This document shows positions 6,593-64,000 of a stretch of DNA of 64,000 nucleotides, in pieces; position 1 is the first letter of the stretch; every line of letters starts with the position of its first letter. Source of the DNA: Rufibacter tibetensis. GTDB taxonomy: Bacteria > Bacteroidota > Bacteroidia > Cytophagales > Hymenobacteraceae. The notes beneath the pieces were generated by a model. That model saw only the letters and a list, made by a program, of their open reading frames with translations, was not told where the DNA came from and did no database searches. The stretch covers positions 3,021,501-3,085,500 of the forward strand of contig NZ_CP012643.1 in the NCBI RefSeq assembly GCF_001310085.1, read 5' to 3'. The position numbers and the translations under genes were made by a program.

Positions 6593-6631
6593 CTGTTCTG
6601 GGGCTGTTTTTGTAAAACAGCCCCAGAACAG
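6593..6631. repeat. Class C palindrome: perfect 18-bp hairpin
   Basis: Arms 6593-6610 and 6614-6631 are perfect reverse complements (CTGTTCTGGGGCTGTTTT on the left) with a TGT loop. No T run follows, so it is not a standard terminator. It belongs to the dispersed palindrome family described in the findings. Confidence 0.85.
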
Positions 6632-6674
6632 TATTGCATACCAGGCCGGATGGCCCATTAGCAGATTATTTAGA

Positions 6675-8225
6675 GTGAACGTGAGTAAAAGAGTACGAGT
6701 AGCTGCCACCAAAAATGCCCTTGCCTGTATCTGGACCTTAGGTGGCTTTTTCATGACATTCAACGCAGTAGCACAGGAGACAGCCGCCCCCCTTCCCGTG
6801 GAAGAGGAAGATCCCAACACCCGTAGGTTGAATTTGCCTGAAGTGATTAAGATGGCCAAAGAGCAGTCGCCCAGCTATCAGCAGGCGCTTACGCAATTGG
6901 AAAACCGTACCTGGCAGTTCCAAACCTACAAAAGCAATTACCTGCCCCAATTGGCTTTGTATGGCACTTTGCCTTCTTACACCAAAGATTATGAACGGCT
7001 CACAGACCCTGAGGGGCGGGTAAACTTTGTTCCGGTTCAATCTGCAACTTCTTCGGCGCATTTAGAACTTAAGCAGAACATTGGTCTAACCGGGGGTACT
7101 ATTGCCATTGATTCCAAGCTGAACCGGATTGATAACTTCCATGAAGTGCGGGGGCATAGCTTTGTATATGCCTCCAACCCAGTGGTAGTAACGCTGCGTC
7201 AGCCTCTTTTTAACCACAATGGGTTGAAGTGGGACCGCAAAACAGAGCCCCTGCGGTACGAGGAAGCCAAACGTAACTTCTGGGAGGAAATGGAGCGCAT
7301 CTCGGTGCGGGCTACGGATCTGTTTTTCTCCCAATTACATAGCCAGATCAGCTATGACATTGCCCAGAAGAACGTGGCGAACAATGATACGCTTTTCAAG
7401 ATTGCGCAGGCGCGGTTCTACAACGCCAAAATAAGTGTAAACGAATTGCTGCAACTGGAACTCAGTCTGCTCAACTCTAAACAAAGCCTGGAGCAGGCCA
7501 GGATGGACATTGAAACCAGCACCTTGCGCTTGAAAACGTACTTGGGTTTCACGGAGACCTACCCCATCCGGTTGCTACCGCCTGACTATATACCTCAATT
7601 TGAGGTAAATGAAGAGGTTGCGCTAAAGCAGGCCCGGGAAAACCGTTCCCGCATGATCGGGATCAAACGTGAGCAGATAGATGCTGAGCGCAACCTGGAC
7701 TGGGCCGAGTCAAGTGCCGGCGTCAATGCAGATCTTTTTCTGCAGTACGGCTTAACGCAGCGGGCGGGTTCTCTGGGACCGGTGTACCAGGACCCTACAG
7801 ATCAGCAACGGGTCAACCTGGGGCTTAGCGTTCCTTTAATGGACTGGGGCCGCAACAAGTCTAAGATAGGTACCGCTAAAGCCAACCTGAAGCTGGTGAA
7901 AGCCAACTTAGAGCAGCAGCGCGTAAGTTTTGAGCAAGATGTCTTCTTACAGGTGAAACGCTTTAAGATGCTGCGTGAGCAGATGAAGTTGGCGAAACAA
8001 GCGAATGGGTTGGCCGAGCGCCGTTTCCTGGGAGCCAGAGACCGTTACTTAGGAGGAAAGATAAATCTCCTAGAGTTAAACCAGGCCGCCACAGAGCGTG
8101 ATTCGGCCCGCCGCAGCTACGTAAGTTCCCTGCGAAATTTCTGGGATGCTTATTATAACCTAAGATTGCAAACGCTTTATGATTTTGAAACAAATCAGCC
8201 GTTAACCATGCCTTTGCCATTTTAA
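6675..8225 (+). CDS. TolC-family outer membrane efflux protein
   Basis: A 516-residue outer membrane channel subunit of the OEP/TolC type, the exit duct for efflux pumps and type I secretion. The start is a GTG at 6675 (another GTG at 6681 is possible); either keeps the N-terminal signal peptide that ends in FNAVAQ near residue 34. Two internal repeats of long amphipathic helices are seen, one around 56-290 with LNLPEVIKMAKEQSPSYQQA and one around 310-500 with the typical AKANLKLVKANLEQQRVSFEQ and NLLELNQA segments. No inner membrane pump or adaptor gene is adjacent, so its partner is elsewhere. A strong bidirectional terminator follows at 8276. Confidence 0.9.
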   Translation: MNVSKRVRVAATKNALACIWTLGGFFMTFNAVAQETAAPLPVEEEDPNTRRLNLPEVIKMAKEQSPSYQQALTQLENRTWQFQTYKSNYLPQLALYGTLPSYTKDYERLTDPEGRVNFVPVQSATSSAHLELKQNIGLTGGTIAIDSKLNRIDNFHEVRGHSFVYASNPVVVTLRQPLFNHNGLKWDRKTEPLRYEEAKRNFWEEMERISVRATDLFFSQLHSQISYDIAQKNVANNDTLFKIAQARFYNAKISVNELLQLELSLLNSKQSLEQARMDIETSTLRLKTYLGFTETYPIRLLPPDYIPQFEVNEEVALKQARENRSRMIGIKREQIDAERNLDWAESSAGVNADLFLQYGLTQRAGSLGPVYQDPTDQQRVNLGLSVPLMDWGRNKSKIGTAKANLKLVKANLEQQRVSFEQDVFLQVKRFKMLREQMKLAKQANGLAERRFLGARDRYLGGKINLLELNQAATERDSARRSYVSSLRNFWDAYYNLRLQTLYDFETNQPLTMPLPF

Positions 8226-8275
8226 GTGAAAACAAAAGTCGTTTTTACCAGGGTTTTTGGAAAATAGGCCAAAAA

Positions 8276-8316
8276 ACAGAAGAGCCCGCTGGTACTACCA
8301 GCGGGCTCTTCTGTTT
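8276..8316. terminator. Bidirectional terminator between tolC-like and STAS-like genes
   Basis: A 19-bp perfect stem (8276-8294 with 8296-8314) containing AGAGCCCGCTGG, preceded by an A run and followed by TTT. It lies between convergent genes and can serve both. Confidence 0.85.
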
Positions 8317-8329
8317 AAAAGTTTGATTC

Positions 8330-8743
8330 TTATTTAACGGTGCTGTAGGCAGCAAGCCATTTTTTGGCAGTTTCTAAGTTGTCAAATGATTTCGCTTCAA
8401 AAGACTTTAATTGGTTGAGGAAAGTAGACGCCGAAGATTCTCCAAAGCTCTCAGGGTTGGCCAGCATTGCGAAGCGTTTCAGCCCGGCCTTGGCAGCGCT
8501 GGGCGCCCACTCATTAATAACCCAGTCCATAGAGTGGTCCCAAGAGCCAATAATGAGACGGGTATCATTTAATACGCAATTGTAGCCGGCATCTGCCAGT
8601 GCCTGCGTGTAGGCTTTGGCCCCGGTTTTTACATTCTCTTCGGTTAAGTACCCCATCCAGTTTACATAAATCAACCTGTTTTGGGAATCTTCTTTGATAC
8701 TGAGGTAAACTCTTCCAAAAGGGTTAATAAGTTCTTTGGTCAT
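8330..8743 (-). CDS. STAS/SpoIIAA-like cytoplasmic protein of unknown function
   Basis: A 137-residue protein with no signal peptide or membrane segment. The strand-helix alternation (LIYVNWMGYLTEENVKTGAK, YNCVLNDTRLIIGSW, LKRFAMLANPESFG) resembles the SpoIIAA-like/STAS fold of small proteins common in Hymenobacteraceae. In those proteins an aromatic-rich strand pair surrounds a helix that would move with ligand or partner. No phosphorylatable serine of the classical anti-anti-sigma type can be assigned with confidence. It is monocistronic, with a terminator on each side. The role is unknown. Confidence 0.7.
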   Translation of the reverse strand: MTKELINPFGRVYLSIKEDSQNRLIYVNWMGYLTEENVKTGAKAYTQALADAGYNCVLNDTRLIIGSWDHSMDWVINEWAPSAAKAGLKRFAMLANPESFGESSASTFLNQLKSFEAKSFDNLETAKKWLAAYSTVK

Positions 8744-8891
8744 AGTTGTGATACAGGTTGTTTTTCTTTCAATCGCAAATGTAGATATTTTGATGTATAT
8801 CTTTTTAGCGAAAGTACTACTACGTGTATATCAAATTCCGGATATAGCTGTTTATGGGCTAATTTTAAGAAAACCGGGTAAAACAATGAAA

Positions 8892-8938
8892 AAGAAAAAG
8901 GGTGTCGGGCTATTTATCAGCTCGGCACCCTTTTTTGG
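8892..8938. terminator. Terminator of the pyrR-pyrB operon
   Basis: A long hairpin (AAAAAGGGTGTCGGGCT paired with AGCTCGGCACCCTTTTTT, including G-U pairs). On the minus strand it ends in a T-rich run, 50 bp past the pyrB stop codon. The T run on the plus side makes it usable in both directions. Confidence 0.8.
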
Positions 8939-8988
8939 TATTGGCTTATTTGTAGAAGCCTAAGCCGCTTCTACTTGAATTTTATGAA

Positions 8989-9912
8989 TTATCCTTTGCT
9001 GGCCAGCAGATACAACACAGCCATTCTAATGGCTACACCATTCTCTACCTGGTCCAGGATGATGGAATGGTGCGAGTCTGCGGCGTCTGAGGTAAGTTCC
9101 ACACCTCGGTTGATGGGGCCGGGGTGCATCAGGACAATTTCCTTGTCCAGTTCATCCAGCATCTTCTTGTTAATCCCGAAGTACAGGGCATACTCACGCA
9201 AAGACGGGAACAGCTTGCCTTGCTGGCGCTCCAGTTGGATGCGTAGCACGTTGGCTACATCGCACCACTGTAAGGCCTCGCGCACGTTCCAGAAGATCTT
9301 CACACCTAAATCACCAATGTGCTTCGGCAATAAGGTGGGCGGACCGCAAACCGCTACTTCAGCACCTTGCATCTGCAGCGCGAAAATGTTGGAAAGTGCC
9401 ACGCGCGAGTGAGTGATGTCACCAATAATGGCTATTTTCTTGCCGGCTACTTCGCCCAGTTTTTGCCGGATGGAGAAGGAGTCTAGTAAGGCTTGCGTGG
9501 GGTGCTCGTGCGTACCGTCACCGGCATTGACAATGTTGGCCTGGATTTTACGCGACAGAAAGTGCGGCGCACCGGGGCTGCTGTGGCGCATCACAATCAT
9601 GTCTACTTTCATAGACAGAATGTTGTTCACCGTATCCAGCAGCGTTTCACCTTTTTTCACCGAACTGCCCGAGGCCGAGAAGTTGATCACATCCGCTGAC
9701 AGGCGTTTTTCTGCCAGTTCAAAGGAAAGCTTGGTACGTGTAGAGTTCTCAAAGAAGACGTTGGCAATGGTGACATCACGCAACGAAGGCACTTTTTTGA
9801 TAGGCCTGTTCAGAACCTCTTTAAACTGGTCAGCGGTTTCAAAAATCAATTGGATGTCCTGGGGAGTAATCTCTTTGATACCCAACAGGTGCCGGACGCT
9901 AAGCTGTTGCAT
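8989..9912 (-). CDS. pyrB: Aspartate carbamoyltransferase catalytic subunit
   Basis: Second step of pyrimidine synthesis: carbamoyl phosphate plus aspartate to carbamoyl aspartate. At 307 residues it has the normal catalytic-chain length. The carbamoyl phosphate loop is FFENSTRTKLSFE (about 53-65), followed by HPTQALLDSFSI and the C-terminal aspartate-binding segment HPGPINRGVEL. Its start codon overlaps the end of pyrR by 14 bp, so the two form a coupled operon. No pyrI regulatory chain gene is adjacent, so it may be of the trimer-only or PyrR-regulated type. A terminator follows at 8892-8938. Confidence 0.96.
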   Translation of the reverse strand: MQQLSVRHLLGIKEITPQDIQLIFETADQFKEVLNRPIKKVPSLRDVTIANVFFENSTRTKLSFELAEKRLSADVINFSASGSSVKKGETLLDTVNNILSMKVDMIVMRHSSPGAPHFLSRKIQANIVNAGDGTHEHPTQALLDSFSIRQKLGEVAGKKIAIIGDITHSRVALSNIFALQMQGAEVAVCGPPTLLPKHIGDLGVKIFWNVREALQWCDVANVLRIQLERQQGKLFPSLREYALYFGINKKMLDELDKEIVLMHPGPINRGVELTSDAADSHHSIILDQVENGVAIRMAVLYLLASKG

Positions 9913-10471: not shown

Positions 10472-10680
10472 GGCCGGGTTTTGGACAAAGATAAAGACTT
10501 ACCGGCAGCCTAGGGTAGTAGAACCTTATTTTTCTTAGAACAACAGCAAGCGCAGAACAGAAATTTATAGAGGGCTTGAATACAGATTTTTTACTTTACA
10601 CGACTAACCATCAAGGAGCTTATAACGGGGAGGTTCTAAGTACCACCACTTTTATACCCGTATTCCCGTAAGACAGGTTT

Positions 10681-16157: not shown

Positions 16158-16331
16158 GAGTCCTGAGTTCTGATTCTGTAGACCTGAGTTAGTTTTGTTT
16201 TAGGGCAATTTTTATAAAACAGGCCTAAAAATGGAAAGGTATTCTTCAACCTTTACCCAATCTGTCGCTTCTTCTTTATAAACCAGAACTCTACAATTGA
16301 CTCAGGGGGCCAGATTCAGAACTCAGGACTC
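16158..16331. repeat. Class D inverted repeat with period-7 arms, containing a class C core
   Basis: The left arm at 16158-16178 and the right arm at 16311-16331 are reverse complements at 20 of 21 positions. Both are built of degenerate 7-bp units (GAGTCCT, GAGTTCT on the left; AACTCAG, GACTCAG on the right). A class C palindrome lies in the middle at 16198-16231. No ORF fits inside. Confidence 0.75.
16198..16231. repeat. Class C palindrome
   Basis: TTTTAGG on the left and GGCCTAAAAA on the right surround a TTTTTATAAAA centre, matching the family plan. It sits inside the period-7 inverted repeat. Confidence 0.6.
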
Positions 16332-21442: not shown

Positions 21443-22315
21443 TTATCTTTTCTGCCGAAATTGTTCCGGGGTGATTTCGGCCTGTTTTTTGAAAAACCGG
21501 CCGAAATAAGAATTGTCCTCAAAGCCGAGGGCCTGCGCCACCTGCGCAATATTGAGGTGCGGCGAGTGGGTGAGCAGTCGTTTGGCTTCCAGGATCAAGC
21601 GTTCCTGCAGCAGGTCAGTGGTGGTTTTGCCCAGGTTCTGTTTGCAGAGTTCGTTCAGGTACTTGGGCGAAAGGTGCAGGGCATGGGCGTAGAAACTGGT
21701 GGGCAGGTGCTCCAGGTAATGGTTCTCCACCAAAGTTTCCAGTTGGTACAACTGAAAAGGCCAGATGTTTTCTTCCGACGCCACCGTGGTTTTAGGATAA
21801 AGCCGGGCCAGTTGAATGAGCAGCAATTCCAGGTAAGCGCGCAAGGCATCAATCTGAAAAGGAGCAGCCCTAGAGTATTCCTGTTGCATTTGGTGCAGGA
21901 GCTGTTCTACCGGAGAAAGGGAATTTGGCTGAACATTGAATACCGGCGGGTGCTGCCAGGTTTGGAAAAAGGGGAACTGCCGTAATGCGTCGGCTTCGCG
22001 GTTTCCGCGGTAAAACTCGGGAGTGAAAAACAGCAGGGTGCCTTCCGTCTCGGGAGAAAGGTCCCAGGCGTGTACTTGCCCGGGCGTGAGGAAGAAAACA
22101 CTTCCGGGCTTCACGTCATAGAGAGTGAAATCAATGGTGTGGGTGCCCTGCCCGTTTCTGACTACCAACAAAAGATAGAAATCATGTTTGTGCGGGGCCT
22201 GCACAAAGGCGTGCTTCTGCCGGTGCGCCTGTAGATCGGCTACGTGGATGCCGCGGGAAAGGGCCTTGGCCGGAGTAAAATCAGGAATACGGTAAACAGG
22301 AAGCTTTTCGGGCAT
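21443..22315 (-). CDS. AraC-family transcriptional regulator
   Basis: A 290-residue one-component regulator. The N-terminal half is a cupin-type sensing domain (HKHDFYLLLVVRNGQGTH at about 43-60, then GSVFFLTPGQVHAW). The C-terminal ~100 residues hold the two helix-turn-helix motifs, with the signature HLNIAQVAQALGFEDNSYF then GRFFKKQAEITPEQFR. The likely effector is a small carbohydrate or aromatic molecule, but nothing in the sequence fixes it. The neighbouring sugar dehydrogenase gene on the same strand is the nearest candidate target. The DNA encoding the second HTH happens to form a palindrome resembling class C, explained by conserved codons. Confidence 0.9.
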   Translation of the reverse strand: MPEKLPVYRIPDFTPAKALSRGIHVADLQAHRQKHAFVQAPHKHDFYLLLVVRNGQGTHTIDFTLYDVKPGSVFFLTPGQVHAWDLSPETEGTLLFFTPEFYRGNREADALRQFPFFQTWQHPPVFNVQPNSLSPVEQLLHQMQQEYSRAAPFQIDALRAYLELLLIQLARLYPKTTVASEENIWPFQLYQLETLVENHYLEHLPTSFYAHALHLSPKYLNELCKQNLGKTTTDLLQERLILEAKRLLTHSPHLNIAQVAQALGFEDNSYFGRFFKKQAEITPEQFRQKR

Positions 22316-22784: not shown

Positions 22785-23166
22785 AGCTTTCGTTCGTTTT
22801 CTCTTAACAAAGGTACGTAGCCCACTAGTTTATGGATAGGACAGAAGGCGGGAGTTGTCGCAGTTTTATCCGGAAGGGCAGGATTTAAGGCTCCTTTTCA
22901 GAAAAAAGCCCTGAAGCGTACTCCTTAAGCAGGTAAGAAGATTTCTAGAAATAAAAATAGCTGTACCGTCTTTTTGTTGTAATAAAAGGGCAGGTTCGTC
23001 TACTAATCAGTGAGTTGAAGAGTTTACTCGTGGAACGTCCTTTTTTCCGGTTTCCCTTCAGCTCAGAAATGCTGGACCTATTCTGATATCTATAAAATAG
23101 CTACCTCATCTTTCATCTAAGAAATCTGATTCAGCATCGTTCTAAAAACAGCACAAAAACCCTTTC
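22785..23166. other. Gene-free gap upstream of the M16 operon
   Basis: This 382-bp divergent region contains one class C-like palindrome (22889-22910, GGCTCCTTTTCAG then AAAAAAGCC) and AT-rich sequence that probably holds the promoters of both flanking genes. I see no ORF, RNA gene or strong operator. Confidence 0.5.
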
Positions 23167-26755: not shown

Positions 26756-26823
26756 CTAGAAGTGAGTTGTTTTTCACTAAGTCCATTCTAATGCGGCATT
26801 GGCTTGGGGGTTTGAGAATACTG

Positions 26824-26859
26824 CTTTTGGCCTGTTTTCAGGAAATAAGGCCAGAAAAG
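26824..26859. repeat. Class C palindrome abutting a stop codon
   Basis: CTTTTGGCCTGTTTTC on the left and AAATAAGGCCAGAAAAG on the right around CAGG. It ends one base from the stop codon (26861-26863) of the T9SS cargo gene. Confidence 0.75.
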
Positions 26860-26860
26860 C

Positions 26861-27979
26861 TCACCGTTTCACAAGTAACTTTTGGATCATCTTTCCCTGT
26901 GAGGTTTTGAGGTGCAGGAGATAAAAGCCTTCCGGCAAACCTACCACGTTGAAGACCCATCCGTCCTTAGATTTTACAGGAACAGGCAGTGGGAATGATA
27001 TTCCCACCGAATTATACACCTTAGTTTCCAGAAGCTGTACAGAAGCAGGTACTTTCAGCGTCAACGTAGATGTAGCCGGGTTAGGGAAGGTGGAAACCTG
27101 CTGTTGCCACTCTTCAGAGATTCCGGTCACAATTGGGGCTTCACGCACAATCAGTTGCCTGTCTCGCATTACCTGACCAATTAGCCTGCCTCCGCGCCAT
27201 TCTTCCACTACCATAGCAACTACAAATTCCCCTAGAACTCCTGGAGTATTCCAGATTAGTTGACCGGTGTTTCTGTTCAGGTTGTATCCTGCTGGGTTTC
27301 CAGAATCAACTGTGCCCAAGAAGTTCTCCAATCCCCTATGTCCGGGCGAGTTCGTTCCCACAGGGTTGCCGCAGGCATTTTCGCCACTGCTTGTTAGAGG
27401 TGTCACTAACTTATAAGAGAGGCTATCACCATCAGCATCAAAGCCAGCATGATTGTGTATGAAGGTTTGATTGCGGAAGGCAATATCATCTGGAAGACCT
27501 TTCAGAATCGGGGAGCGGTTTATCCCTAAAAAAGGATCTGCCACCAAGGTGCTCTGCAAAAAGAATGTTTGTTGTGCCGTGTTGGAGGTATTGACAGTAC
27601 CGGCGTTTCGGCTAGATCCAACATAAGTGATTTTATAAGTACCCGGCCCAGAATACGTGTGCTCAAACTGATAGATGTTAACGAAGGTGCCCAGTTGTGA
27701 AGCTCCTATTATTGTTCTTGATTCTCGGGCTACTGTCTGTTTGGTACAGTCTCCAAAGTGCATAGTTGCCTCTATATCTTCAAAGGGGGGAGGGACTACA
27801 CTGTACGTAACCAAAGTGATAAAAAACCTCAGAGGATTACGGGCAGCCGTAGTGTCGCTTTTATAATATATTTCACCAGCACGGATATGTGAAGCCTGAG
27901 AGGAGAATGAAATCAAAATAAATAAGAGTGAGGGCAGAAGTAAGGTTTTTGCCTGTTTAAGTGATGGGGGAGGTATCAT
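26861..27979 (-). CDS. Secreted protein with type A T9SS sorting domain
   Basis: A 372-residue surface or secreted protein. The signal peptide (about 1-28) ends near SSQAS. The central region (about 35-270) is beta-rich, with SHIRAGEIYYKSD and HNHAGFDADGDSLSYKLVTP, a cadherin/Ig-like motif with a DxDGD calcium-type loop. The last ~80 residues are a type A C-terminal sorting domain (VSTFPNPATSTLTLKVPAS, LPEGFYLLHLKTSQGKMIQK, ending in LVKR), which sends the protein through the type IX secretion system. Its partner substrates are unknown; adhesion is a reasonable guess. It is a stand-alone gene between two palindromes. Confidence 0.85.
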   Translation of the reverse strand: MIPPPSLKQAKTLLLPSLLFILISFSSQASHIRAGEIYYKSDTTAARNPLRFFITLVTYSVVPPPFEDIEATMHFGDCTKQTVARESRTIIGASQLGTFVNIYQFEHTYSGPGTYKITYVGSSRNAGTVNTSNTAQQTFFLQSTLVADPFLGINRSPILKGLPDDIAFRNQTFIHNHAGFDADGDSLSYKLVTPLTSSGENACGNPVGTNSPGHRGLENFLGTVDSGNPAGYNLNRNTGQLIWNTPGVLGEFVVAMVVEEWRGGRLIGQVMRDRQLIVREAPIVTGISEEWQQQVSTFPNPATSTLTLKVPASVQLLETKVYNSVGISFPLPVPVKSKDGWVFNVVGLPEGFYLLHLKTSQGKMIQKLLVKR

Positions 27980-29860: not shown

Positions 29861-29897
29861 CAAAATGGCTCTCTGGTTTAATCAGAGAGCCATTTTT
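29861..29897 (-). terminator. Terminator of the arginine operon
   Basis: A 14-bp perfect stem AAAATGGCTCTCTG (29862-29875) with CAGAGAGCCATTTT (29883-29896), 40 bp past the argH stop on the minus strand. T-rich on both sides. Confidence 0.7.
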
Positions 29898-29900
29898 GTG

Positions 29901-29932
29901 TTAAGGCTGTTTTCAGCAAAACATGCTAAAAG
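29901..29932. repeat. Class C palindrome next to the argH stop codon
   Basis: TTAAGGCTGTTTTC on the left and AAAACATGCTAAAA on the right around a short loop. It ends 4 bp from the argH stop. Confidence 0.55.
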
Positions 29933-29936
29933 TAGA

Positions 29937-31268
29937 TTACACCAGCAGCTCAGCAATGGCTTTGTCTACTTTCTCAAACTGGAAGCCGCTTAGGACTTCC
30001 TCCATCAAGCCTTTTATCTCCGTTGTGCACAAGTTGCCAATGCTGCCCTCATGCGTGTGATTCACGGTTTCAGGTCTTTCAAATTCGCCTTTTTCAATGG
30101 CTACCCCCACGTTCTTGTACGCATCTCTGAACGGCACTCCGCTTAGCACCTGGTTATTCACGACTTCCACGCTGAAGAGGTATTTGTATTTCTCATCTTT
30201 CAGAATGTCTTCGTTCAGCTTCAGGTTCGGCAGCATGAAAGTCATCATCTCCAGGCAGTTCCTGATTTCAGTGAACGCGGGGAAGAAGCTTTCTTTGAGC
30301 AACTGCAACTCACGGTGATAACCGGACGGCAAGTTGCCGAGGAGCATCTGAATCTCAGTAGGTAGCGCTTGCAGGCGGTTGCATTTGCCACGCATGATTT
30401 CAAACACGTCAGGGTTCTTCTTGTGTGGCATGATGCTGGAACCGGTGGTCAGTTCACCAGGCAGTGTCACGAAGGCGAAGTTCTGGCTCATGTACAGGCA
30501 CACGTCCATGGCCATGCGGCCGAGCGTGCTGGCAATAGACGCCAAGCCCATGCTTACGCTGCGCTCAGTTTTGCCACGACCCATCTGGGCGTACACCACG
30601 TTGTAGTTCAACGCTTCGAAGCCCAGTAAATCGGTCGTCATCTGGCGGTTCAAAGGGAAGGAACTTCCGTAACCAGCCGCCGAGCCTAGAGGATTTTTGT
30701 TGCTGATTTTGTAGGCCGCTTGCAACATCTGCAAGTCATCTACCAAACTCTCGGCATAAGCGCCAAACCATAACCCGAACGAAGAAGGCATGGCTACCTG
30801 CAAATGGGTGTAACCTGGAAGTAGAATATGCTTGTTCTTTTCGCTGAGCTCCTGTAAGGTGGTGAACAGCGTGTGCACGGCCTCCACCGTCTGCCGGATT
30901 TCATGACGGATAAACAGTTTCAGGTCTACCAGCACCTGGTCGTTGCGGGAACGGCCGCTGTGGATTTTTTTGCCAGCCTCGCCCAACCGACGAGTGAGCA
31001 ACATCTCTACCTGCGAGTGTACGTCTTCCACACCTGGCTCAATGGTAAACTCGCCGCGTTCAATGCTTTTGTAAATCTCTTTGAGTTCACGCTGCACATC
31101 CGCTAAGTCTTCTGACTCCATCAACCCGATGCTCTCCAGCATGCGTGTGTGTGCCAGGGAGCCCAGCACATCAAAAGGAGCTAATTGTAAGTCCATCTCG
31201 GCGTCTTTGCCCACGGTGAACTTTTCTACATTTTGCGCGACGGAGGTTTCTTTTTGCCAGAGTTTCAT
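29937..31268 (-). CDS. argH: Argininosuccinate lyase
   Basis: Last step of arginine synthesis: argininosuccinate to arginine plus fumarate. At 443 residues it is slightly short of the usual 450-460, within family range. The superfamily signature SSIMPHKKNPDVFE is at about 277-290, with the catalytic serine in the TGSS loop, and SGRSNDQVLVD near 106-116 (read SGRSRNDQVL). It is the last gene of the arginine operon, one base after the deacylase gene, and is followed by a terminator. Cytoplasmic. Confidence 0.96.
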   Translation of the reverse strand: MKLWQKETSVAQNVEKFTVGKDAEMDLQLAPFDVLGSLAHTRMLESIGLMESEDLADVQRELKEIYKSIERGEFTIEPGVEDVHSQVEMLLTRRLGEAGKKIHSGRSRNDQVLVDLKLFIRHEIRQTVEAVHTLFTTLQELSEKNKHILLPGYTHLQVAMPSSFGLWFGAYAESLVDDLQMLQAAYKISNKNPLGSAAGYGSSFPLNRQMTTDLLGFEALNYNVVYAQMGRGKTERSVSMGLASIASTLGRMAMDVCLYMSQNFAFVTLPGELTTGSSIMPHKKNPDVFEIMRGKCNRLQALPTEIQMLLGNLPSGYHRELQLLKESFFPAFTEIRNCLEMMTFMLPNLKLNEDILKDEKYKYLFSVEVVNNQVLSGVPFRDAYKNVGVAIEKGEFERPETVNHTHEGSIGNLCTTEIKGLMEEVLSGFQFEKVDKAIAELLV

Positions 31269-32383: not shown

Positions 32384-32401
32384 ATTATATCTGCTGATTC
32401 T

Positions 32402-32435
32402 CTTTTTTAGCTATTTTCTGGAAAACAGGCCAAAG
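32402..32435. repeat. Class C palindrome
   Basis: CTTTTTTAGCTATTTTC on the left and GAAAACAGGCCAAAG on the right. Located 38 bp past the proC stop. Confidence 0.65.
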
Positions 32436-32472
32436 CCAGCAATTCGAATGGAGAAAAGGCAGTGCCTGGCCT

Positions 32473-33294: not shown

Positions 33295-33379
33295 GGTTCT
33301 TGTATGTTTTACGCCATTGACTGGCTGTGAATCAATTTATTATTGCTGCAAGAAAACAGTTAAAGGGGTAACTGCGGTT

Positions 33380-33415
33380 GTTTTAATCCTCTTTTCGAGA
33401 AAACAGCCAGAAAAC
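33380..33415. repeat. Class C palindrome
   Basis: GTTTTAATCCTCTTTTC on the left and GAAAACAGCCAGAAAAC on the right. It lies between argB and proC. Confidence 0.65.
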
Positions 33416-33431
33416 ATATATCCATATTTGG

Positions 33432-34229
33432 CTACAGCGTAATCTTAGTACCAACTTTTTCACCAGCGGCAATGGTTTGGATTTCGGCGGCGTGCCCAAT
33501 GATAACCGCCTTCACCCCCGCTTGTAGCGCGGCAAAAGCGTTATCCAGTTTAGGAAGCATTCCTGCGAAGATGGCGCCTTGCTCTTTCAGTTGCGCATAG
33601 TTATCTGGTTGCAGGTGGTGGATGACACTGTTTTCATCTTCCACATCCAGCAGCACGCCTTTCTTCTCAAAACAATAGATTAGGTTCACTTCAAATTGGC
33701 GGCTAAGCGCTACCGCAAGGGTAGAGGCAATGGTATCTGCGTTGGTATTGAGCATGTTGCCCTGACCATCATGCGTCAATGCCGCGAAGATTGGAGTAAG
33801 ACCTTGTTCAGCTAAGGAAGCCAAGAAAGGTACATTCACCTGATCTGGACTTTCTACATCACCCACAAAGCCGTAGTCAATATCTTTCAACGAGCGCTTA
33901 TGGGCCGGAATAACATTGGCATCAGCACCGGTCAAACCAAGGGAGTTGCAGCCTCTGGCTTGCAGCTGCGCTACCAGATTCTTATTCAGCAATCCACCGT
34001 ACACCATGGTTACTACGCGCAAAGTGTCTGCATCCGTAATGCGGCGGCCGTTCACCATATTGGGTTCAATGCCTAACTGCTTGCTCAGTTCAGAGGCAAT
34101 TTTCCCGCCTCCGTGTACTAGGACTTTGGGGCCTTTGATGGCTGCGAAGTCTGTTAAAAACTGATCTAACTGGGCTGGGTTGTCCAGTACATTTCCCCCT
34201 ATTTTGATGACGCTGATTTTAGTAGACAC
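33432..34229 (-). CDS. argB: N-acylglutamate kinase
   Basis: Phosphorylates N-acetyl- or N-succinyl-glutamate, the second step of the acylated pathway. At 265 residues it is the standard length. The amino acid kinase motifs are VIKIGGNVLDNP (7-18), LVHGGGK (about 37-43) and GLTGADANVI near 97-106. The start is a GTG at 34229; no ATG lies nearby. The product is the usual feedback control point in some bacteria, but no arginine-binding N-terminal extension is present. The spacer upstream to argF' holds a class A element. Confidence 0.94.
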   Translation of the reverse strand: MSTKISVIKIGGNVLDNPAQLDQFLTDFAAIKGPKVLVHGGGKIASELSKQLGIEPNMVNGRRITDADTLRVVTMVYGGLLNKNLVAQLQARGCNSLGLTGADANVIPAHKRSLKDIDYGFVGDVESPDQVNVPFLASLAEQGLTPIFAALTHDGQGNMLNTNADTIASTLAVALSRQFEVNLIYCFEKKGVLLDVEDENSVIHHLQPDNYAQLKEQGAIFAGMLPKLDNAFAALQAGVKAVIIGHAAEIQTIAAGEKVGTKITL

Positions 34230-34252
34230 GAGATAGTATACTTAAGACCTTA

Positions 34253-34458
34253 CGCTGGCGCGAGCTTGCAGCTCGTGTCCGCACGTATTTTTGATAACTA
34301 AATATTATTGTCATCCTAAAAGGATCTTGTGGGCGAACTAGTAAAGCTCTATTCAAGCGGTACTGCCGTTAGCCATCAAGATCTTTCCAAGATGACATGA
34401 GGAGGATTAATACTGTGAAGAAATGCGTGCGGACACGAGCTGCAAGCTCGCGCCAGCG
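34253..34458. repeat. Class A inverted-repeat element 2, with nested class B repeat
   Basis: A 206-bp element between argF' and argB. Outer arms are ~33 bp reverse complements (CGCTGGCGCGAGC then TTGCAGCTCGTGTCCGCACG on the left), each with a GAGCT/AGCTC hairpin. A class B repeat is nested inside at 34310-34396 (GTCATCCTAAAAGGATCTTG to CAAGATCTTTCCAAGATGAC). It fills nearly the whole spacer. Confidence 0.88.
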
Positions 34459-34464
34459 GCACTC

Positions 34465-36631: not shown

Positions 36632-36672
36632 GAGCGTGATGAAGATGGAAGACGTAAGACATCATTTCATTT

Positions 36673-36714
36673 GCTTGTTTTGGCCTGTTTTTCTGAAAAC
36701 AGGCCAAAACAAGC
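36673..36714. repeat. Class C palindrome: perfect 19-bp hairpin, best copy
   Basis: Arms 36673-36691 and 36696-36714 are perfect reverse complements (GCTTGTTTTGGCCTGTTTT on the left) with a TCTG loop. It is the best-preserved member and defines the family plan. Confidence 0.9.
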
Positions 36715-36728
36715 TTTCTGCAGAAAGC
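36713..36728. repeat. Perfect 16-bp palindrome
   Basis: GCTTTCTGCAGAAAGC reads the same on both strands. It starts in the last two bases of the class C hairpin and could form an operator dyad or part of an extended cruciform. Confidence 0.6.
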
Positions 36729-36737
36729 ATTGCTGAT

Positions 36738-36842
36738 CGCTGGCGCGAGCTTGCAGCTCGTGTCCTACAGCATTGCTGATTTAGCTTTCTCAACAAATTG
36801 ATCTGGAATACCTGCGGACACGAGCTGCAAGCTCGCGCCAGC
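36738..36842. repeat. Class A inverted-repeat element 3 (short)
   Basis: The shortest class A copy at 105 bp, with arms CGCTGGCGCGAGCTTGCAGC and their reverse complement. No class B insert. It ends 7 bp before the argC stop codon. Confidence 0.85.
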
Positions 36843-36848
36843 CAAGTA

Positions 36849-39024: not shown

Positions 39025-39034
39025 TTTAATGAGA

Positions 39035-39145
39035 GAATGAGTGAATGTAAGAATGAGCGAAAATTTTTGGTAAGCGAATGAAGGTTGAGTGAATGAGAGA
39101 ATAGGTATATTTTATTCACTCATTCAATCAACCACTCATTCAACC
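39035..39145. repeat. Class D inverted repeat with period-8 arms
   Basis: The left side has units GAATGAGT, GAATGTAA, GAATGAGC (39035-39058); the right side has ATTCACTC, ATTCAATC, AACCACTC, ATTCAACC (39114-39145). A 12-bp exact reverse-complement core is GAATGAGTGAAT (39035-39046) with ATTCACTCATTC (39114-39125). The stop codon of the upstream acyltransferase gene (39140-39142) lies in the right arm. Confidence 0.8.
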
Positions 39146-51297: not shown

Positions 51298-51376
51298 GTA
51301 TACTAGTTCGTATTTGGTAGTAACCATGCCACCGGTAAGTGGCACTTAATGTTCCTTTCTCTTAAGTAGTCTCTTT

Positions 51377-51411
51377 GTTTAGAGCCTGTTTTTACAAAAT
51401 AGGAGCGAAAC
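51377..51411. repeat. Class C palindrome
   Basis: GTTTAGAGCCTGTTTT on the left and AAAATAGGAGCGAAAC on the right; located 80 bp upstream of the ABC start codon. Confidence 0.65.
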
Positions 51412-51481
51412 AGAACCAAAACCGCGGACTCAGAGAAAGCAACCCGCAAAGGTAGCCATTACCGTTGACTTACCCATTGTA

Positions 51482-55563: not shown

Positions 55564-55612
55564 GGTTCTGTTTCGGCCCTGTTTTCCCAGAATCAGTCCT
55601 AAAAAAGAAACC
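55564..55612. repeat. Class C palindrome (degraded, long)
   Basis: GGTTCTGTTTCGG on the left faces CCTAAAAAAGAAACC on the right around CCCTGTTTTCCCAG. It lies 38 bp past the M61 stop codon. Confidence 0.4.
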
Positions 55613-58226: not shown

Positions 58227-58286
58227 CTTCCTCTTTTCGGGGTGTTTTCAGAAAGCAAAGCTAAAAACGCCACCCGAAAAGAGAAG
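58227..58286. repeat. Class C-like palindrome (long loop)
   Basis: CTCTTTTCGGG (58231-58241) pairs exactly with CCCGAAAAGAG (58273-58283); inner TGTTTTC and AAAAACG also match the class C plan. It sits between the methyltransferase and CinA-C genes. Confidence 0.55.
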
Positions 58287-58907: not shown

Positions 58908-58954
58908 CTTTCTGTTTTAGGGTTCTTCTAAGAAAACCGCTTCAAAACTGAAAG
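58908..58954. repeat. Class C palindrome upstream of the PAP2 gene
   Basis: CTTTCTGTTTT (58908-58918) pairs with AAAACTGAAAG (58944-58954) with one mismatch; GGTTCTTCT and AGAAAACC form the centre. It ends 16 bp before the PAP2 start. Confidence 0.55.
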
Positions 58955-59690: not shown

Positions 59691-59721
59691 CAGGCTATTT
59701 TACAAAAAGGAGCTTAAAACT
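59691..59721. repeat. Class C palindrome directly after the PAP2 stop codon
   Basis: CAGGCTATTTTAC on the left and AAAAAGGAGCTTAAAACT on the right. The first base follows the TAA (59688-59690). Confidence 0.5.
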
Positions 59722-59825
59722 ACGGCACTTTCTTTCGGCCGTAATTATACTAATACTACTTAAAAATCATTATATTTATACAGCTCCTTTCAAGTACGTG
59801 CCTTTTATATAAACTGGTGCCTTCT

Positions 59826-60443
59826 ATGCCCGAAAACGCTATAATGCCTCAAACAAAGCTACAGTTAGTTTACCAGCACATTGTAACCAAGCTACAGGAA
59901 GAGCTTCCGGTAGAGTTGAGTTACCATTGTGCGAGGCATACGTTAGATGTGTTTCACCAGGCTCAGGCAATAGCCGAATATGAAGGCATAAAAGACCCGG
60001 AAGAACTTTTGCTGTTGCAGGTGAGCGCCCTTTATCATGATTCTGGGTTTCTTCAAGCGTATGACCAGCATGAGGAGAAAAGCTGTGATCTGGCCCGCGC
60101 AGATCTACCAGGGTTCGGGTTTAGCCCGGCCCAGATTGAAACCATTTGTGGTCTCATTTTAGCTACAAAAGTTCCTCAGGTTCCACAAACCAAGTTGCAG
60201 GAAATTCTCTGCGATGCTGACTTAGATTATCTTGGCCGCAATGACTTTTTCCAAATTGGGGAAACCCTTTTTCAGGAGTTTCTCAGCTATGGCGTGTTGC
60301 AGGACGAAGTGCGTTGGAACCAATTGCAGGTGAGATTTCTGGAGAACCATCGGTTTTTTACCTGTTTTTCTAAAAACAACCGTGAAAAGAAAAAGCAGAA
60401 GCACCTGAAGCTGATCAAGGCCAAGCTTACTCAGCCGTCTTAG
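59826..60443 (+). CDS. HD-domain metal-dependent phosphohydrolase
   Basis: A 205-residue cytoplasmic HD protein from the ATG at 59826; an in-frame GTG lies 9 bp upstream. HCARHTLDVFHQA at about 34-46 and ALYHDSGFLQ near 68-77 carry the HD metal ligands; DADLDYLGRNDF follows near 127-138. Substrates could be nucleotides or cyclic dinucleotides. The last ~30 residues are strongly basic and are encoded over a class C-like palindrome (60351-60382). The 3' end overlaps the convergent cNMP-binding gene by 17 bp. Confidence 0.8.
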   Translation: MPENAIMPQTKLQLVYQHIVTKLQEELPVELSYHCARHTLDVFHQAQAIAEYEGIKDPEELLLLQVSALYHDSGFLQAYDQHEEKSCDLARADLPGFGFSPAQIETICGLILATKVPQVPQTKLQEILCDADLDYLGRNDFFQIGETLFQEFLSYGVLQDEVRWNQLQVRFLENHRFFTCFSKNNREKKKQKHLKLIKAKLTQPS

Positions 60444-60873
60444 CAGTCCGGTGCTCTACTAGTTTAATGTCCATCTGCCGAAGGCGCCGGCACAACGTTT
60501 TCAGGATTCCTTTCAAGACCTCGGCATTGGAGATCATGATTTCATAAAAAGGCTCCTGCTCTAGTTTAAGCAGGATAGTTTCTTCTACGGTAGTGGCGCT
60601 GGCAGACCTGGGCTCGGCGTCCAAGATAGACAACTCACCTAAGATTTCATTTTCCTCCAGAATGGCAAAGGTGTGTTCCTCGTCATGTATCCGGATTTTG
60701 CCTTTGTAAATAAAATACATGCTGGTGCCCATGTCTCCCTTCGCAAACACCTGGGTGCCGGTAGTGAGGTAGAGTTCCTCCAAGGCACCCGCCAACTCCA
60801 CCAAATTTGTTTCTGGGGTGTCGTGAAAAATTCTAGATGAATTTAAGGTCAACACTTTCTCTATTAGCAGCAT
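60427..60873 (-). CDS. Cyclic nucleotide-binding domain protein
   Basis: A 148-residue cNMP-binding domain with no DNA-binding part. The phosphate-binding cassette GELSILDAEPRSASA is at about 92-106, including the Arg that grips the cyclic phosphate. The ATG overlaps the end of the NTT-like/HEAT gene by 41 nt in another frame, so expression is coupled. In many bacteria these domains are fused to an NTT-HEAT protein, so this may be the third domain of a split protein. The starting sequence MLLIEKVLTL is like the linker in the fused forms as I recall them. Confidence 0.85.
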   Translation of the reverse strand: MLLIEKVLTLNSSRIFHDTPETNLVELAGALEELYLTTGTQVFAKGDMGTSMYFIYKGKIRIHDEEHTFAILEENEILGELSILDAEPRSASATTVEETILLKLEQEPFYEIMISNAEVLKGILKTLCRRLRQMDIKLVEHRTAKTAE

Positions 60874-63598
60874 GTTTCAAGGTTGTAAGTTGTGATAAGT
60901 GAGAGATCACAAATTCACGAGTTTCTGTGTAAAGGGTATCTGAGGTGGTTGGTTCGGGCGTGATGGCCTCGGCCAGTTCAGGCTCAGGTAAGGATATTAT
61001 GCAATAGCAGGCCACAGACTTCACCCAAGGGGAGCAGCCAGCAGGGTTGTCCGTCACTATTTCATGGATGATCTGGGAAGTACTCAGTTTTTTCTTGTCT
61101 TTAGGAGATTGCCATCTTTTCTCCTTTTCTAAATGGAAATCAATGAGCGCTTCCACCACCAGAAAACATCTTTTTGGGATCACCTGCTCCAGCATTTCAA
61201 TGGCGTTCGCTATTTTTTCAGGTGACCCTATAGACAAGAGGTCCATCACCCGGTTAATGCTTTGCCGGTCATACACTAGGGCCAGGCTTTTCATGATACT
61301 TTTGATGTCTTGCCTCAACTCAGAGGCCAGGGACTCTGCCAGTAACGGAGCCTCTGGTTTTTTGGCTAGGGTATGGCAATAAAGGGCTTTCCGGCGGCTA
61401 TGCACCATTTTGGTTTTGAGCCAACTCAATACAGCTGTTTTTGTTTCTTTGAAGAGTTTGGCGTTTTTATTCCAGAGGGCTTCTATCACCTCATCCTGGT
61501 ACTGGTGTTCTGTTTTTAGGAGTTGGGTAAGGAACTGGGTGGAAAAATCTCCTTTCACTTTTCCGGCGGCTCGTATCAATACCAACTCAAGGTCTTTGCT
61601 TTCGGGCTTTTCAGTTAGGTTTAGAGGCGCAAAGGCTTCGTCCCCGAAAAGTACCACGGCATTCTGCAGGGCATAGGGAGTTTTTCTAGACTGGCCCACG
61701 TGCAGTATTTGGGGCAGGAGGGAAGCGTCTTTAGTTTTGCCAGCCGTTTCTAGAGCCTTCTTGTATACTTTTTCAGAAGTGTCCTGCAGCAGGGTTTCAA
61801 TGAAAGGCTTGAAATCAGTATGAAGTGCCTTGGCGAAGATGTCCAGCACTGCCAATCGCTCTTCTTCTTTCTCACTTGTAGAAAGTGCTTCCAGGTGGTG
61901 TCTTACCCGTTGGTGCGCTTCCTCTTCGCCCCGGAGGGACAAGCCAATTAAGGCAGCTTTTTTGATCTCCAGATCTTCTGTAAGTAGAAGCTCAGGGGGC
62001 TGAGGAGTAAGAAAGTAGTAAGCCGTGGTCAGAGCCGGTTTGGTGGAAGCATTTGAGTTTTCCTGCATTGCCTGCTCTATGGTAGAAAAGGCATTGGTGA
62101 GTTTTAAAGCCACTATTCTGGAAATGACATATTTCTGTACTAACCCAGAGGGGCTTTGCAGCAAGGGAAGTAGGCGCTTCTCCAGGTTTTGGTCCCCCGC
62201 TCGTTCCAGCAACTCCAGAGCTAATATTACTTCTTGCGGATTTTTGCTGTTTAGTTTGTCCATCAAAAGAATCTTCACCGACACATCATTCAGAAACAGC
62301 TCAGACCCGGTGAAATACCCTTTCTTCAAGGCGTTGACCAGAGAGCGGAGGTACTCTTTCTTTATCAGGAAGATAGAACCAATCCAGGCTATTAGCAGAC
62401 CTACCAATATCTGGGTAACTAAAGTGATTGAAATATTGCCGTACAGGTAATTGTACCCCGTTAAGAATACGCCACTAATCATTAAGGCAATAGGCATGGT
62501 GTAACCTTTTGAAATGAGGTGCCCTTTTAGCCTTGAGTGTGGGTCAAGGGGCTGGAAAAGCACAAGGAATGCGGGCTCCTGCACCGCTGATTTCAGCACC
62601 TCAGACAGCAGTACCATTACCCCAAACATGATGAAGATATTAGTTTGGTTTTCAAAGGGCAGCAGCATGATGATGGAGATGGTCAACAATATTACAGGTG
62701 CCAATAACAGGGAATTTGTTAACCCCAGCCGGCTGATCACCCTGCTGCTAAGCATCAGTTTTACCATTATGGCCAGGACCCTTCCAACCGCGAAGAACAT
62801 TCCTAAGAAGGCCGCAATCTCAGGGCTCGTGTAGTACCTTGATTTTACCTCAGACAGGAACGTGTAATCTACCAGGGAATAGACCGTGAAGACTATCACT
62901 GAGAAAACCGCAATAGAGAAAATAAGATGGTTATGGAAGTGCTTGGCTATGAAAGTTTTTTCTGGCACATGTTCATGGTGCACGGCATGACCCAGATCAG
63001 AGATGGCTTGGTGCTCAAAATTCCTCAGGAAGAAGAAAGCCAACAGAAAGCTGCCTATGGTTACCCATAACAAACTCTCCACCCCCAACACTGGGGCTAG
63101 AACAGACGCTGCCGTATACCCAAACATCTTAGCCGGTATGTCTCCGGCTCCCACCACAAAAAATAAACGTTTACTTTCCCGTACATTGAAGATAATGGCG
63201 GCCAAGCCCCAGAAAGCGTAGCCTATTAACATGTACACAACCATGTTCCAGGCCGCCAGGAAAAAAGGCAGCCATTTAGCTGGAACCAAAGTCAGTCCGG
63301 CCCAGGAGAGGAAAATGGAGATAGCAGAGAAGAGAATGACCGTTTGTAACAGCTTTTTAGGGCTTAACCTGGTTTCAAGTTTCCCATAAAAGAGGTTCGT
63401 GATCAGCATCAGTACTGCTGAGACGATGTATACTTTTGGAAAATCTTTGAGCTCAAAGGCGTCAAGGAACATGGCCAGCGTACCAGTAAAGAGGGTAGAC
63501 GTGGCAATACCCAAACAAAACTGCACCAGGAACAACTGCTTCACCACCCTGGATTCAGCAGTTTTGATATTCAACAGCAAATTTATTCTGCTATTCAT
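60833..63598 (-). CDS. NTT-like/MFS membrane protein with HEAT repeats
   Basis: A 921-residue protein. The first ~420 residues hold about 12 membrane segments of the nucleotide-transporter/MFS type (AWNMVVYMLIGYAFWGLAAI, RLFFVVGAGDIPAKMFG and similar motifs), followed by a cytosolic region of about 430-900 that consists of HEAT-like helical repeats (EVILALELLERAGDQ, EVIEALWNKNAKL, IANAIEMLEQVIPKR). NTT proteins with HEAT and cNMP domains are known in free-living bacteria; nucleotide transport is not assured in this subfamily. The cNMP-binding domain is encoded as a separate, overlapping gene. The 3' end reads through a weak period-7 repeat at 60879-60899. Confidence 0.82.
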   Translation of the reverse strand: MNSRINLLLNIKTAESRVVKQLFLVQFCLGIATSTLFTGTLAMFLDAFELKDFPKVYIVSAVLMLITNLFYGKLETRLSPKKLLQTVILFSAISIFLSWAGLTLVPAKWLPFFLAAWNMVVYMLIGYAFWGLAAIIFNVRESKRLFFVVGAGDIPAKMFGYTAASVLAPVLGVESLLWVTIGSFLLAFFFLRNFEHQAISDLGHAVHHEHVPEKTFIAKHFHNHLIFSIAVFSVIVFTVYSLVDYTFLSEVKSRYYTSPEIAAFLGMFFAVGRVLAIMVKLMLSSRVISRLGLTNSLLLAPVILLTISIIMLLPFENQTNIFIMFGVMVLLSEVLKSAVQEPAFLVLFQPLDPHSRLKGHLISKGYTMPIALMISGVFLTGYNYLYGNISITLVTQILVGLLIAWIGSIFLIKKEYLRSLVNALKKGYFTGSELFLNDVSVKILLMDKLNSKNPQEVILALELLERAGDQNLEKRLLPLLQSPSGLVQKYVISRIVALKLTNAFSTIEQAMQENSNASTKPALTTAYYFLTPQPPELLLTEDLEIKKAALIGLSLRGEEEAHQRVRHHLEALSTSEKEEERLAVLDIFAKALHTDFKPFIETLLQDTSEKVYKKALETAGKTKDASLLPQILHVGQSRKTPYALQNAVVLFGDEAFAPLNLTEKPESKDLELVLIRAAGKVKGDFSTQFLTQLLKTEHQYQDEVIEALWNKNAKLFKETKTAVLSWLKTKMVHSRRKALYCHTLAKKPEAPLLAESLASELRQDIKSIMKSLALVYDRQSINRVMDLLSIGSPEKIANAIEMLEQVIPKRCFLVVEALIDFHLEKEKRWQSPKDKKKLSTSQIIHEIVTDNPAGCSPWVKSVACYCIISLPEPELAEAITPEPTTSDTLYTETREFVISHLSQLTTLKHAANRESVDLKFI

Positions 63599-64000
63599 GT
63601 AAGTAGGTAACTAGGTGATTCCATTTCCTTCTTTGTTTTTTCGTGCGTAAGGTATCTCTGATGTGATCTGAGAGATATTCTCAGGAAAAGCGGGGCGTGA
63701 AGGTGTTACTACTACTTCCGGTTAAAAGCTCATTACTGCATATTGGTATTGGTTAGCTCATGTGATTTTACCTGATCTGTATCTTTTCCAAGGTGTTTTC
63801 CTGAAATCGATTCAAAAGAAGACGCAGCCGGTTGGCCATAAAACTTTGGGTGCTAGCTGCAACCTACAACCTACAACTTATTTGGTTTACAGGTACTACG
63901 CTTCCTTTTATAAATGAAGGTGTGTAATGTTCTTGAAATCAATAAATTAAGGTAGAATTTTGAGAAGCTAGGGCGGGAGGTAGGGAATTGTTACCTCTTG
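63599..64000. other. Gene-free right edge
   Basis: The last 402 bp contain no supportable ORF. There is one class C-like palindrome (63782-63819, TCTTTT and AAAAGA outer arms around GGTGTTTTCCTGAAATC) and a short period-7 run (ACAACCT-like units, 63859-63879) that faces the weak repeat at 60879-60899 in inverted orientation. The rest is AT-rich. Confidence 0.5.

Follow-up and report, generated by a model that had tools for sequence, protein, structure and literature searches.

A genus-restricted family of four-box intergenic palindromes in Rufibacter, possibly sites for a DNA-binding protein

The intergenic palindromes of Rufibacter tibetensis form a real family, which is narrower and cleaner than first described. 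Each is a 44-base signal with two-fold (mirror) symmetry that sits between genes and carries four short boxes (YGTTTT, YGTTTT, AAAACR and AAAACR), spaced 11 bp apart within each arm and with approximately 4 bp between the arms. The family is found throughout the genus Rufibacter, is restricted to that genus, and occupies orthologous positions that have been kept across it. We give roughly even chances to the reading that the palindrome serves, as a two-fold symmetric site in double-stranded DNA, a putative dimeric or tetrameric DNA-binding protein and marks an intergenic boundary. The window referred to below is the whole stretch of R. tibetensis DNA analysed, 64,000 nucleotides in length.

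Members in the window

The family was modelled as two arms, CYGTTTTRRGSCYGTTTT-NNNN-AAAACRGSCYYAAAACRG, using a weight matrix trained on 82 copies with a perfect core in a congener, G224. The matrix favours G224-like copies, so that counts for the window's species (G000) are lower bounds. A preliminary description had listed 20 places in the window as one family of hairpins with a common plan. The listed sequences were present at their positions, and the arms at 6593 and 36673 are perfect, as claimed. Eleven of the 20 places fit the model at 15.6 to 44 bits, as do three unlisted ones at 20 to 24 bits, two of them within called genes (Table 1); no score of 4 bits or more arose in 20 shuffles of the window. 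The other nine fall below 4 bits. Among these, 22889 is probably a decayed member, since the syntenic gap of G224 holds an intact element with which it can be aligned. The gap containing 53034 and 53091 holds at least one member in 11 of the 13 genomes compared and none at the cut-off in G000, and the membership of 13525, 19705, 22341, 28178, 59691 and 63782 is unproven. Two of the stop-codon contacts reported earlier, at 26861 and 29937, are right, whereas the places to which 22380 and 59690 belong score too low for membership. The loop of 3 to 4 bases originally described suits G000, where the centre length is 4 in 61/79 and 3 in 18/79, but in G224 the length is 4 in 239 of the 244 members.

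A motif-independent count over 800 kb of G000, which takes in ordinary terminators, gave 240 hairpins with at least 11 of 14 pairs, 196 of them intergenic, against 63 to 77 in three shuffles. An Rfam search of the window returned no match at gathering score.

Table 1. Palindromes of the window, with scores from the G224 matrix and occurrence in other genomes
Positions	Strand	Listed as	Status	Bits	Features	Other genomes
2922..2965	.		unlisted member	20.2		
6591..6633	.	6593	member	44.0	loop 3; co-directional gap	
16193..16235	.	16198	member	28.0	loop 3; divergent gap	
21469..21512	.		unlisted member	24.2	within 3' end of called gene 21443-22315	
22878..22921	.	22889	probably decayed member		alignment to intact G224 element	
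26819..26862	.	26824	member	22.4	convergent gap; stop codon 26861 at its end	
29894..29937	.	29901	member	32.4	convergent gap; stop codon 29937 at its end	G295 and G297 have members at this gene end
32398..32441	.	32402	member	23.7	co-directional gap	
33376..33419	.	33380	member	27.7	next gene 81 bp away	members in gap in 13/14 genomes compared
36672..36715	.	36673	member	32.3	most perfect palindrome	member in gap in 16/16 genomes; 14 at 31-43 bp from same gene end
51373..51415	.	51377	member	30.9	loop 3	members in gap in 11/14 genomes compared
55566..55609	.	55564	member	26.3		members in gap in 8/11 genomes compared
58229..58272	.	58227	weak member	15.6		
58910..58952	.	58908	member	23.9	loop 3; divergent gap, CinA-domain gene / PAP2 gene	members in gap in 10/15 genomes compared
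60349..60392	.		unlisted member	20.5	within 3' end of called gene 59844-60443	

Genus range, genomic position and conservation

The A/T skeleton of the palindrome occurs in 40 (G302) to 1705 copies per genome in 16 Rufibacter genomes, a clear excess over chance (control 2 to 16), and stays at control level in 104 other genomes of the bacterial family. Members lie outside called genes in 239/244 cases over 800 kb of G224 and in 74/81 over 800 kb of G000, which bears out the intergenic bias reported earlier; genes were called by our own hexamer model (80% coding in G000, 78% in G224), which misses short genes and places starts approximately, and the gap classes inherit both. Member density is greatest in convergent gaps and half as great in divergent ones, which contain 30 of the 244 G224 members. 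The upstream stop is nearer than the next start for 95/123 members in G224 and 36/52 in G000. No members were found in the 140 kb of contig C2, by its size a putative plasmid, and contig C3 (7.5 kb) holds a single one at 16 bits, inside a called gene, and none at 20 bits. Spacing is at most slightly regular (CV 1.25; intergenic positions drawn at random give 1.38, sd 0.09). Members are also found nested in the loops of other inverted-repeat families, and viral contigs gave one match, L306.

Syntenic retention between G224 and G000 was 48/104 versus 7/122. Between-species identity reached 0.90 in the T/A core (50 columns), compared with 0.51 elsewhere in the element (126 columns) and 0.56 in the flanks (271 columns); the core differs from the flanks at p = 3e-15, and TTT/AAA runs in the flanks have an identity of only 0.62. 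These comparisons show the T/A core of the four boxes to be under selection. In copies picked by one arm, most T positions of the other arm are kept at 0.91 to 0.99, and bases at its R, S and Y positions are exchanged for others of their class. The window's species keeps mainly the T/A core, so the requirement on the site seems to be relaxed or changed there.

Many G224 copies carry 40 to 60 bits of information, more than point mutation could easily have built up at this number of sites, which requires that some copying took place. Nearest-neighbour distances among copies equal the independent-column expectation. In G224, members are common between genes for which the G000 stretch used for comparison has no ortholog (35/87), which suggests gain, with the reservation that such orthologs may lie outside the compared 800 kb.

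Competing explanations

A protein-binding site was the reading offered last in the preliminary description and is now the best supported of its three, the site itself being putative. The copies have the near-fixed geometry and selected core that such a site would show, and the reading draws on genus-restricted abundance, near-fixed spacing, nearest-neighbour distances like those of independent columns, the selected core, the lack of a wobble preference, divergent copies and syntenic retention. The putative protein would sit on the palindrome and read the T/A tracts on one face of each arm. The bound site may then act both ways as an intergenic boundary, as an organiser of the nucleoid or as a transcription roadblock.

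Coupled change between the arms counts against this reading, as do the high information content of the G224 copies and the suggestion of gain in that species. Double changes between G224 and G000 orthologs were Watson-Crick in 96/111 cases versus 3625/5581 with the arms swapped, in ortholog groups matched on score and on how far the sites lie from gene ends, into which some sites enter twice. From a simple half-site model one would not expect this excess. Global alignment of the G224-G000 gaps, in which only 12/117 elements were indel-free and which is of supporting use only, gave double changes that were Watson-Crick in 15 cases and not in 4. Arm pairing favours the protein reading at positions -3 and -1, where it equals the independent expectation, and at -4, where it is close to it (0.58 versus 0.52). 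It speaks against that reading at -2, -5, -6 and -11 to -14, where the expectation is exceeded, as does the total of 4383 Watson-Crick pairs versus 4020 with the arms swapped. Compensatory change, proposed earlier as a check on the family, is present but modest.

Another origin would be a REP-like or MITE-like dispersed element whose spread preceded the radiation of the genus and which perhaps is still spreading in certain lineages while decaying in others, its location reflecting tolerated intergenic insertion. We think this unlikely. The family is dispersed and looks decayed in the window's species, as the preliminary suggestion of a non-autonomous element would have it, and it runs to hundreds to more than 1000 copies with an approximately 40-fold difference between species. 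The nested copies, the G224 members between genes with no ortholog seen, the high information content of the copies and a slight excess at the low end of the pairwise distances point the same way. Against it, the positions are orthologous, the T/A core is selected, the nearest-neighbour median equals the null with no recent master copy, and the 140 kb of contig C2 is without members. No target site duplication was found in G224 (best excess over control 0.05, 239 copies); for the 44 copies of G000 the excess reached up to 0.11 over 98 combinations tried. Arm pairing continues past the motif in 8/239 copies only, and is not a rule. Y1_Tnp is absent at the cut-off from G237 despite 970 skeleton copies.

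A link to a tyrosine transposase was rejected, with 0 to 6 Y1_Tnp per genome and members at 17/30 fetched loci in inconsistent positions. Left arms with no strong partner number 42 in G224 and 80 in G000 (an 800-kb stretch each); among the 15 listed per genome, most have a decayed partner and a few no visible one. As candidate ends of an insertion sequence or parent element, the unpartnered left arms of these two stretches were also matched to the nearest following right arm, up to 4 kb off, and this was rejected, the distances being without pattern.

That the family is an RNA element, with a 3' hairpin that terminates transcription or protects mRNA in both directions, is in our view improbable, and the earlier proposal of a selected 3' mRNA structure was not supported. 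Members do lie nearer the upstream stop than the next start and are densest in convergent gaps, and compensatory change fits in part. A strict stem of their own is held by 56/244 members and 19/244 abut another, where about 5-6 are expected; in 34/156 sense-oriented single-member gaps the hairpin spans the whole element and has a T-rich tail. However, RNA wobble pairs are not preferred overall: transcript-oriented mismatches in 296 members comprise 344 G-U and 429 A-C, minus-strand groups 193 versus 297; in 19 co-directional orthologous pairs G-U (32) is slightly above A-C (28), a point against the protein reading. Copies are present between divergent genes, where their density is half the convergent value, whereas terminator-like hairpins fall to 0.06 versus 0.96 per kb. 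Conservation is confined to the T/A core and does not extend to the GC portion of the stem. Substitution of terminators by members looked strong in one test and disappeared against random masking and with strict stems; the tests conflict, and no substitution is claimed.

Templated correction of quasi-palindromes, a mutational process that would keep the arms alike without function, accommodates the coupled double changes and the few arms that reach into unique flank, but it should act everywhere, yet positions -3 and -1 show no coupling and -4 little, and it leaves the genus-specific sequence and conserved T/A core unexplained, so that we hold it very improbable.

Known systems and significance

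Bacterial extragenic palindromes are usually explained as mobile-DNA relics or RNA hairpins. No description of the four-box Rufibacter palindromes was found among the literature matches listed.

REP/BIME palindromes (GTAG and CGTC superfamilies), which have been proposed to act in supercoiling or termination, resemble them in being short, high-copy and mostly intergenic, in preferring convergent and co-directional gaps and in lying near stop codons (PMC3733652). The Rufibacter consensus differs in being symmetric, with no conserved tag outside the arms like the unpaired GTAG or CGTC motif at one end of REPs (PMC3733652), and in its near-fixed 4-bp centre, selected T/A boxes and lack of a consistent tyrosine transposase neighbour, to which the GTAG type is linked. 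Like MITEs, the palindromes are short, dispersed inverted repeats, but they have no target site duplication or recognised parent, lone arms are few and, in the two 800-kb stretches, have no consistent distant partner. Placement after stop codons recalls bidirectional intrinsic terminators, and the outer box CTGTTTTA doubles as the U tract in some Rufibacter terminators; unlike terminators, the palindromes have T tracts inside the arms and A tracts on the 3' side, no wobble preference, and copies in divergent gaps. Within each arm, the spacing of T/A tracts by 11 bp, one helical turn, recalls phased A tracts and the sites of nucleoid-associated proteins (PMC3940949). The palindromes differ in being discrete, dyad-symmetric consensus sites rather than a diffuse periodic signal, and in having tract centres approximately 7-8 bp apart across the dyad.

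The orthologous copies display selection on features of double-stranded DNA within one genus only. At odds that we put well below even, they may amount to a chromatin-like boundary system specific to Rufibacter, in which up to a thousand or more bidirectional, putatively protein-bound sites would shield transcription units from one another and give order to the nucleoid. Strong versions in some species stand beside weak ones in others, so that the putative binding protein can be sought, and the palindromes allow gene-boundary or chromosome-organising roles to be tested.

Geometry and distribution of class C

The consensus of class C, the intergenic palindrome family studied here, was drawn from 64 copies in named loci picked for a perfect core, together with 82 perfect-core copies from an 800-kb stretch of G224, another Rufibacter genome. 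Each arm, CYGTTTTRRGSCYGTTTT, carries two YGTTTT boxes 11 bp apart and is mirrored about four loosely specified bases. A two-arm weight matrix built from the 82 G224 copies found 239 members per 800 kb of G224 and 44 in R. tibetensis, with none in either shuffle. Of 244 G224 members taken at a slightly lower cut-off, 239 have a 4-base center; in R. tibetensis, at a 16-bit cut-off, 61 of 79 have a center of this length and 18 have one of 3 bases. The G224 800 kb also has 102 perfect hairpins that lie between genes and do not belong to class C; 34 of them show YGTTTT, the sequence of the class C box, near a stem end.

R. tibetensis (5.41-Mb genome, 5.17-Mb chromosome) is a species with a weak class C family. 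Eleven of the 20 window places in the preliminary description are members by the matrix and the remainder fall below cut-off; three places absent from that list are members too. Genome-wide, TGTTTTN{2,6}AAAACA occurs 103 times, against 3 for the reversed pattern. In a further R. tibetensis comparison, TGTTTT-N3-5-AAAACA occurs 18 times (16 intergenic), against 0-1 for rearranged palindromes of equal composition; the direct repeat TGTTTT-N3-5-TGTTTT is also enriched (16 copies, 15 of them intergenic), which two boxes per arm would predict.

In a sample of the order, three congeners had 118-431 copies of TGTTTTN{2,6}AAAACA (control 0-3); the remaining 287 genomes had 0-109 (controls 0-111). All 16 Rufibacter genomes carry CCTGTTTTN{2,6}AAAACAGG (2-311 copies; control 0 in each). 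The copy-number check proposed in the preliminary description was borne out by the skeleton TTTT-N7-TTTT-N4-AAAA-N7-AAAA, one mismatch being allowed. These 16 genomes have 40-1705 copies of it, an approximately 40-fold spread between species (control 2-16); a further 104 genomes from the family have 0-18 (controls 0-17). Across 395 genomes of the phylum, the fuller pattern with one mismatch matched only R. tibetensis, the sole Rufibacter sampled (10 copies). Among the matches listed in a scan of named genomes, GCCTGTTTTN{2,5}AAAACAGGC recurred in Rufibacter (R. ruber, immobilis, hautae, sediminis, latericius, glacialis, roseus, psychrotolerans and further species), with scattered single matches elsewhere. 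Judged by these pattern counts, class C is specific to Rufibacter.

Features in and around the window and on other contigs
Location	Observation
22889	place in the preliminary list; probable decayed member by alignment, not by matrix score
beside orthologs of 33432-34229 (congener gaps, for example)	short perfect palindrome AGACCTCACAGGTTTTGAAAACCTGTGAGGTCT and CGGTCTGTCCCCTGACAGACCG repeat, in several species
34230-34464; 36632-36848; many congener gaps	filled by long inverted repeats of other families (CTGGCGCGAGC..., GTCATCCTGAAAGGACC..., ACCTCACCCCC..., GACACTCGTAGGAGC...)
gap 34465-35418/35495-36631	members in 3/16 genomes, within a larger inverted repeat
gap 39025-39139	degenerate TCAATCATTCACTCA-like repeats able to fold back; likewise in most congeners
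C2 (smaller 235-kb R. tibetensis contig, inferred plasmid), 1-140000	no class C member of at least 16 bits in these 140 of 235 kb; about 14 expected at the chromosomal rate
L306 (IMG/VR viral contig), 1275-1310	one match to the full class C pattern

Conservation of the core and of position

Identity was compared in five gaps around the window, taking positions -8, -7, 3, 4 and 5 of each arm as the T/A core. Mean pairwise identity was 0.90 in the core (50 columns), 0.51 in the rest of the element (126) and 0.56 in the flanks (271; core versus flank p = 3e-15, rest versus flank p = 0.36). The outer-box G (0.83) and first T (0.85) were also high; TTT/AAA runs in the flanks averaged 0.62, in a comparison whose columns repeat, so that its own p-value is not independent. 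We infer that class C is a dyad-symmetric double-stranded DNA site whose T/A core is under selection.

When G224 copies were picked by one arm, the core of the partner arm held T at 0.99, 0.98, 0.98, 0.98 and 0.96 and its remaining T positions at 0.83-0.92, while R, S and Y positions exchanged inside their own class. Positions fixed by this choice cannot be judged for pairing; elsewhere, pairing equaled the independent expectation at -3 and -1, was close to it at -4 (0.58 versus 0.52) and exceeded it at -2, -5, -6 and -11 to -14. The R. tibetensis partner core was at 0.78-0.86, and box G positions fell to 0.30-0.36.

For the compensatory changes raised in the preliminary description, the result was divided. 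Double changes were Watson-Crick in 96 of 111 cases between G224 and R. tibetensis orthologs, but the multi-species share (764/1010) only equaled that of unrelated members (4842/6362; swapped arms 3625/5581). Since the G224-R. tibetensis share lies above both, the coupling of the arms is real but modest. It counts against a pure half-site model; contributions may come from a dimer that prefers symmetric sites, from cruciform DNA or from templated correction.

Positions are kept between species. At 79% nucleotide identity (aligned segments over 300 bp, 20-kb set), R. tibetensis has a member of at least 14 bits in 48 of 104 syntenic gaps holding a G224 member, against 7 of 122 without one, and the distance to the gene end is often the same within a few bp. 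The five gaps have members in 16/16, 13/14, 11/14, 8/11 and 10/15 genomes, the last being the divergent gap between a CinA-domain gene and a PAP2 gene. Other nearby gaps have members in few genomes, so gain or loss also occurs. Gaps between genes without an ortholog in the compared stretch hold members as often as conserved gaps in G224 (35/87 versus 105/226) and less often in R. tibetensis (6/101 versus 47/220), which hints that gain continued in the former and ceased in the latter.

Mobile-element, RNA and terminator readings

The dispersed non-autonomous element of the preliminary description holds as to dispersal, but positions are kept between species, no target-site duplication was found at G224 members, and there is no consistent link to Y1_Tnp, the tyrosine transposase domain. 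Genomes carry 0-6 Y1_Tnp genes; none reaches the cut-off in G237, a congener in which the skeleton occurs 970 times, and a member accompanies 17 of the 30 Y1_Tnp loci fetched, in no fixed place. Pairing extends beyond the motif in only 8 of 239 G224 members. Nearest-neighbor distance among 234 members had a median of 7 (7.05 in column-permuted sets) and a 5th percentile of 4 versus 5.1, compatible with a small number of recent copies. Members often lie inside loops of the CTGGCGCGAGC-, GTCATCCTGAAAGGACC-, ACCTCACCCCC- and GACACTCGTAGGAGC-type families.

As the preliminary description had it, members are nearly all intergenic: 5 of 244 in G224 lie inside called genes, the others in co-directional (149), convergent (60) and divergent (30) gaps. 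Density per kb in these three gap types was 1.34, 1.80 and 0.93 in G224 and 0.46, 0.86 and 0.23 in R. tibetensis; terminator-like hairpins, in the G224 comparison, gave 0.43, 0.96 and 0.06. Of the cores in co-directional gaps, 95 of 123 (G224) and 36 of 52 (R. tibetensis) lie closer to the stop codon upstream than to the start codon that follows.

A selected 3' mRNA structure, also proposed earlier, is not upheld, given the 30 members in divergent gaps and the lack of a G-U excess over A-C in transcript orientation. Pairs in 296 co-directional members were Watson-Crick in 4383 cases, G-U in 344, A-C in 429 and of another kind in 764; the corresponding counts with swapped arms were 4020, 403, 501 and 996. 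Oriented one-sided changes between orthologs were 193 G-U and 297 A-C in minus-strand groups, and 32 and 28 in 19 G224-R. tibetensis pairs.

Tests of whether members replace terminators disagreed, and no role in termination is claimed: a fold-based test gave fewer terminators with members present, a difference removed by masking (convergent G224 gaps, 0.40 with a member and 0.29 when the same place was masked at random in gaps without one). Strict stems in G224 did not differ between gaps with and without members (12/34 versus 7/23 convergent; 19/110 versus 16/133 co-directional); R. tibetensis had a weak trend (3/13 versus 24/57; 2/39 versus 32/201, p = 0.08). Strict stems adjoin 19 of 244 G224 members (approximately 5-6 expected), and 56 of 244 themselves form one.

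Predicted role

The conserved protein-binding site of the preliminary description agrees with the core-to-flank difference in identity, and a putative protein is probably bound to the class C site. Its predicted role in Rufibacter would be that of a nucleoid site, an insulator or a roadblock.
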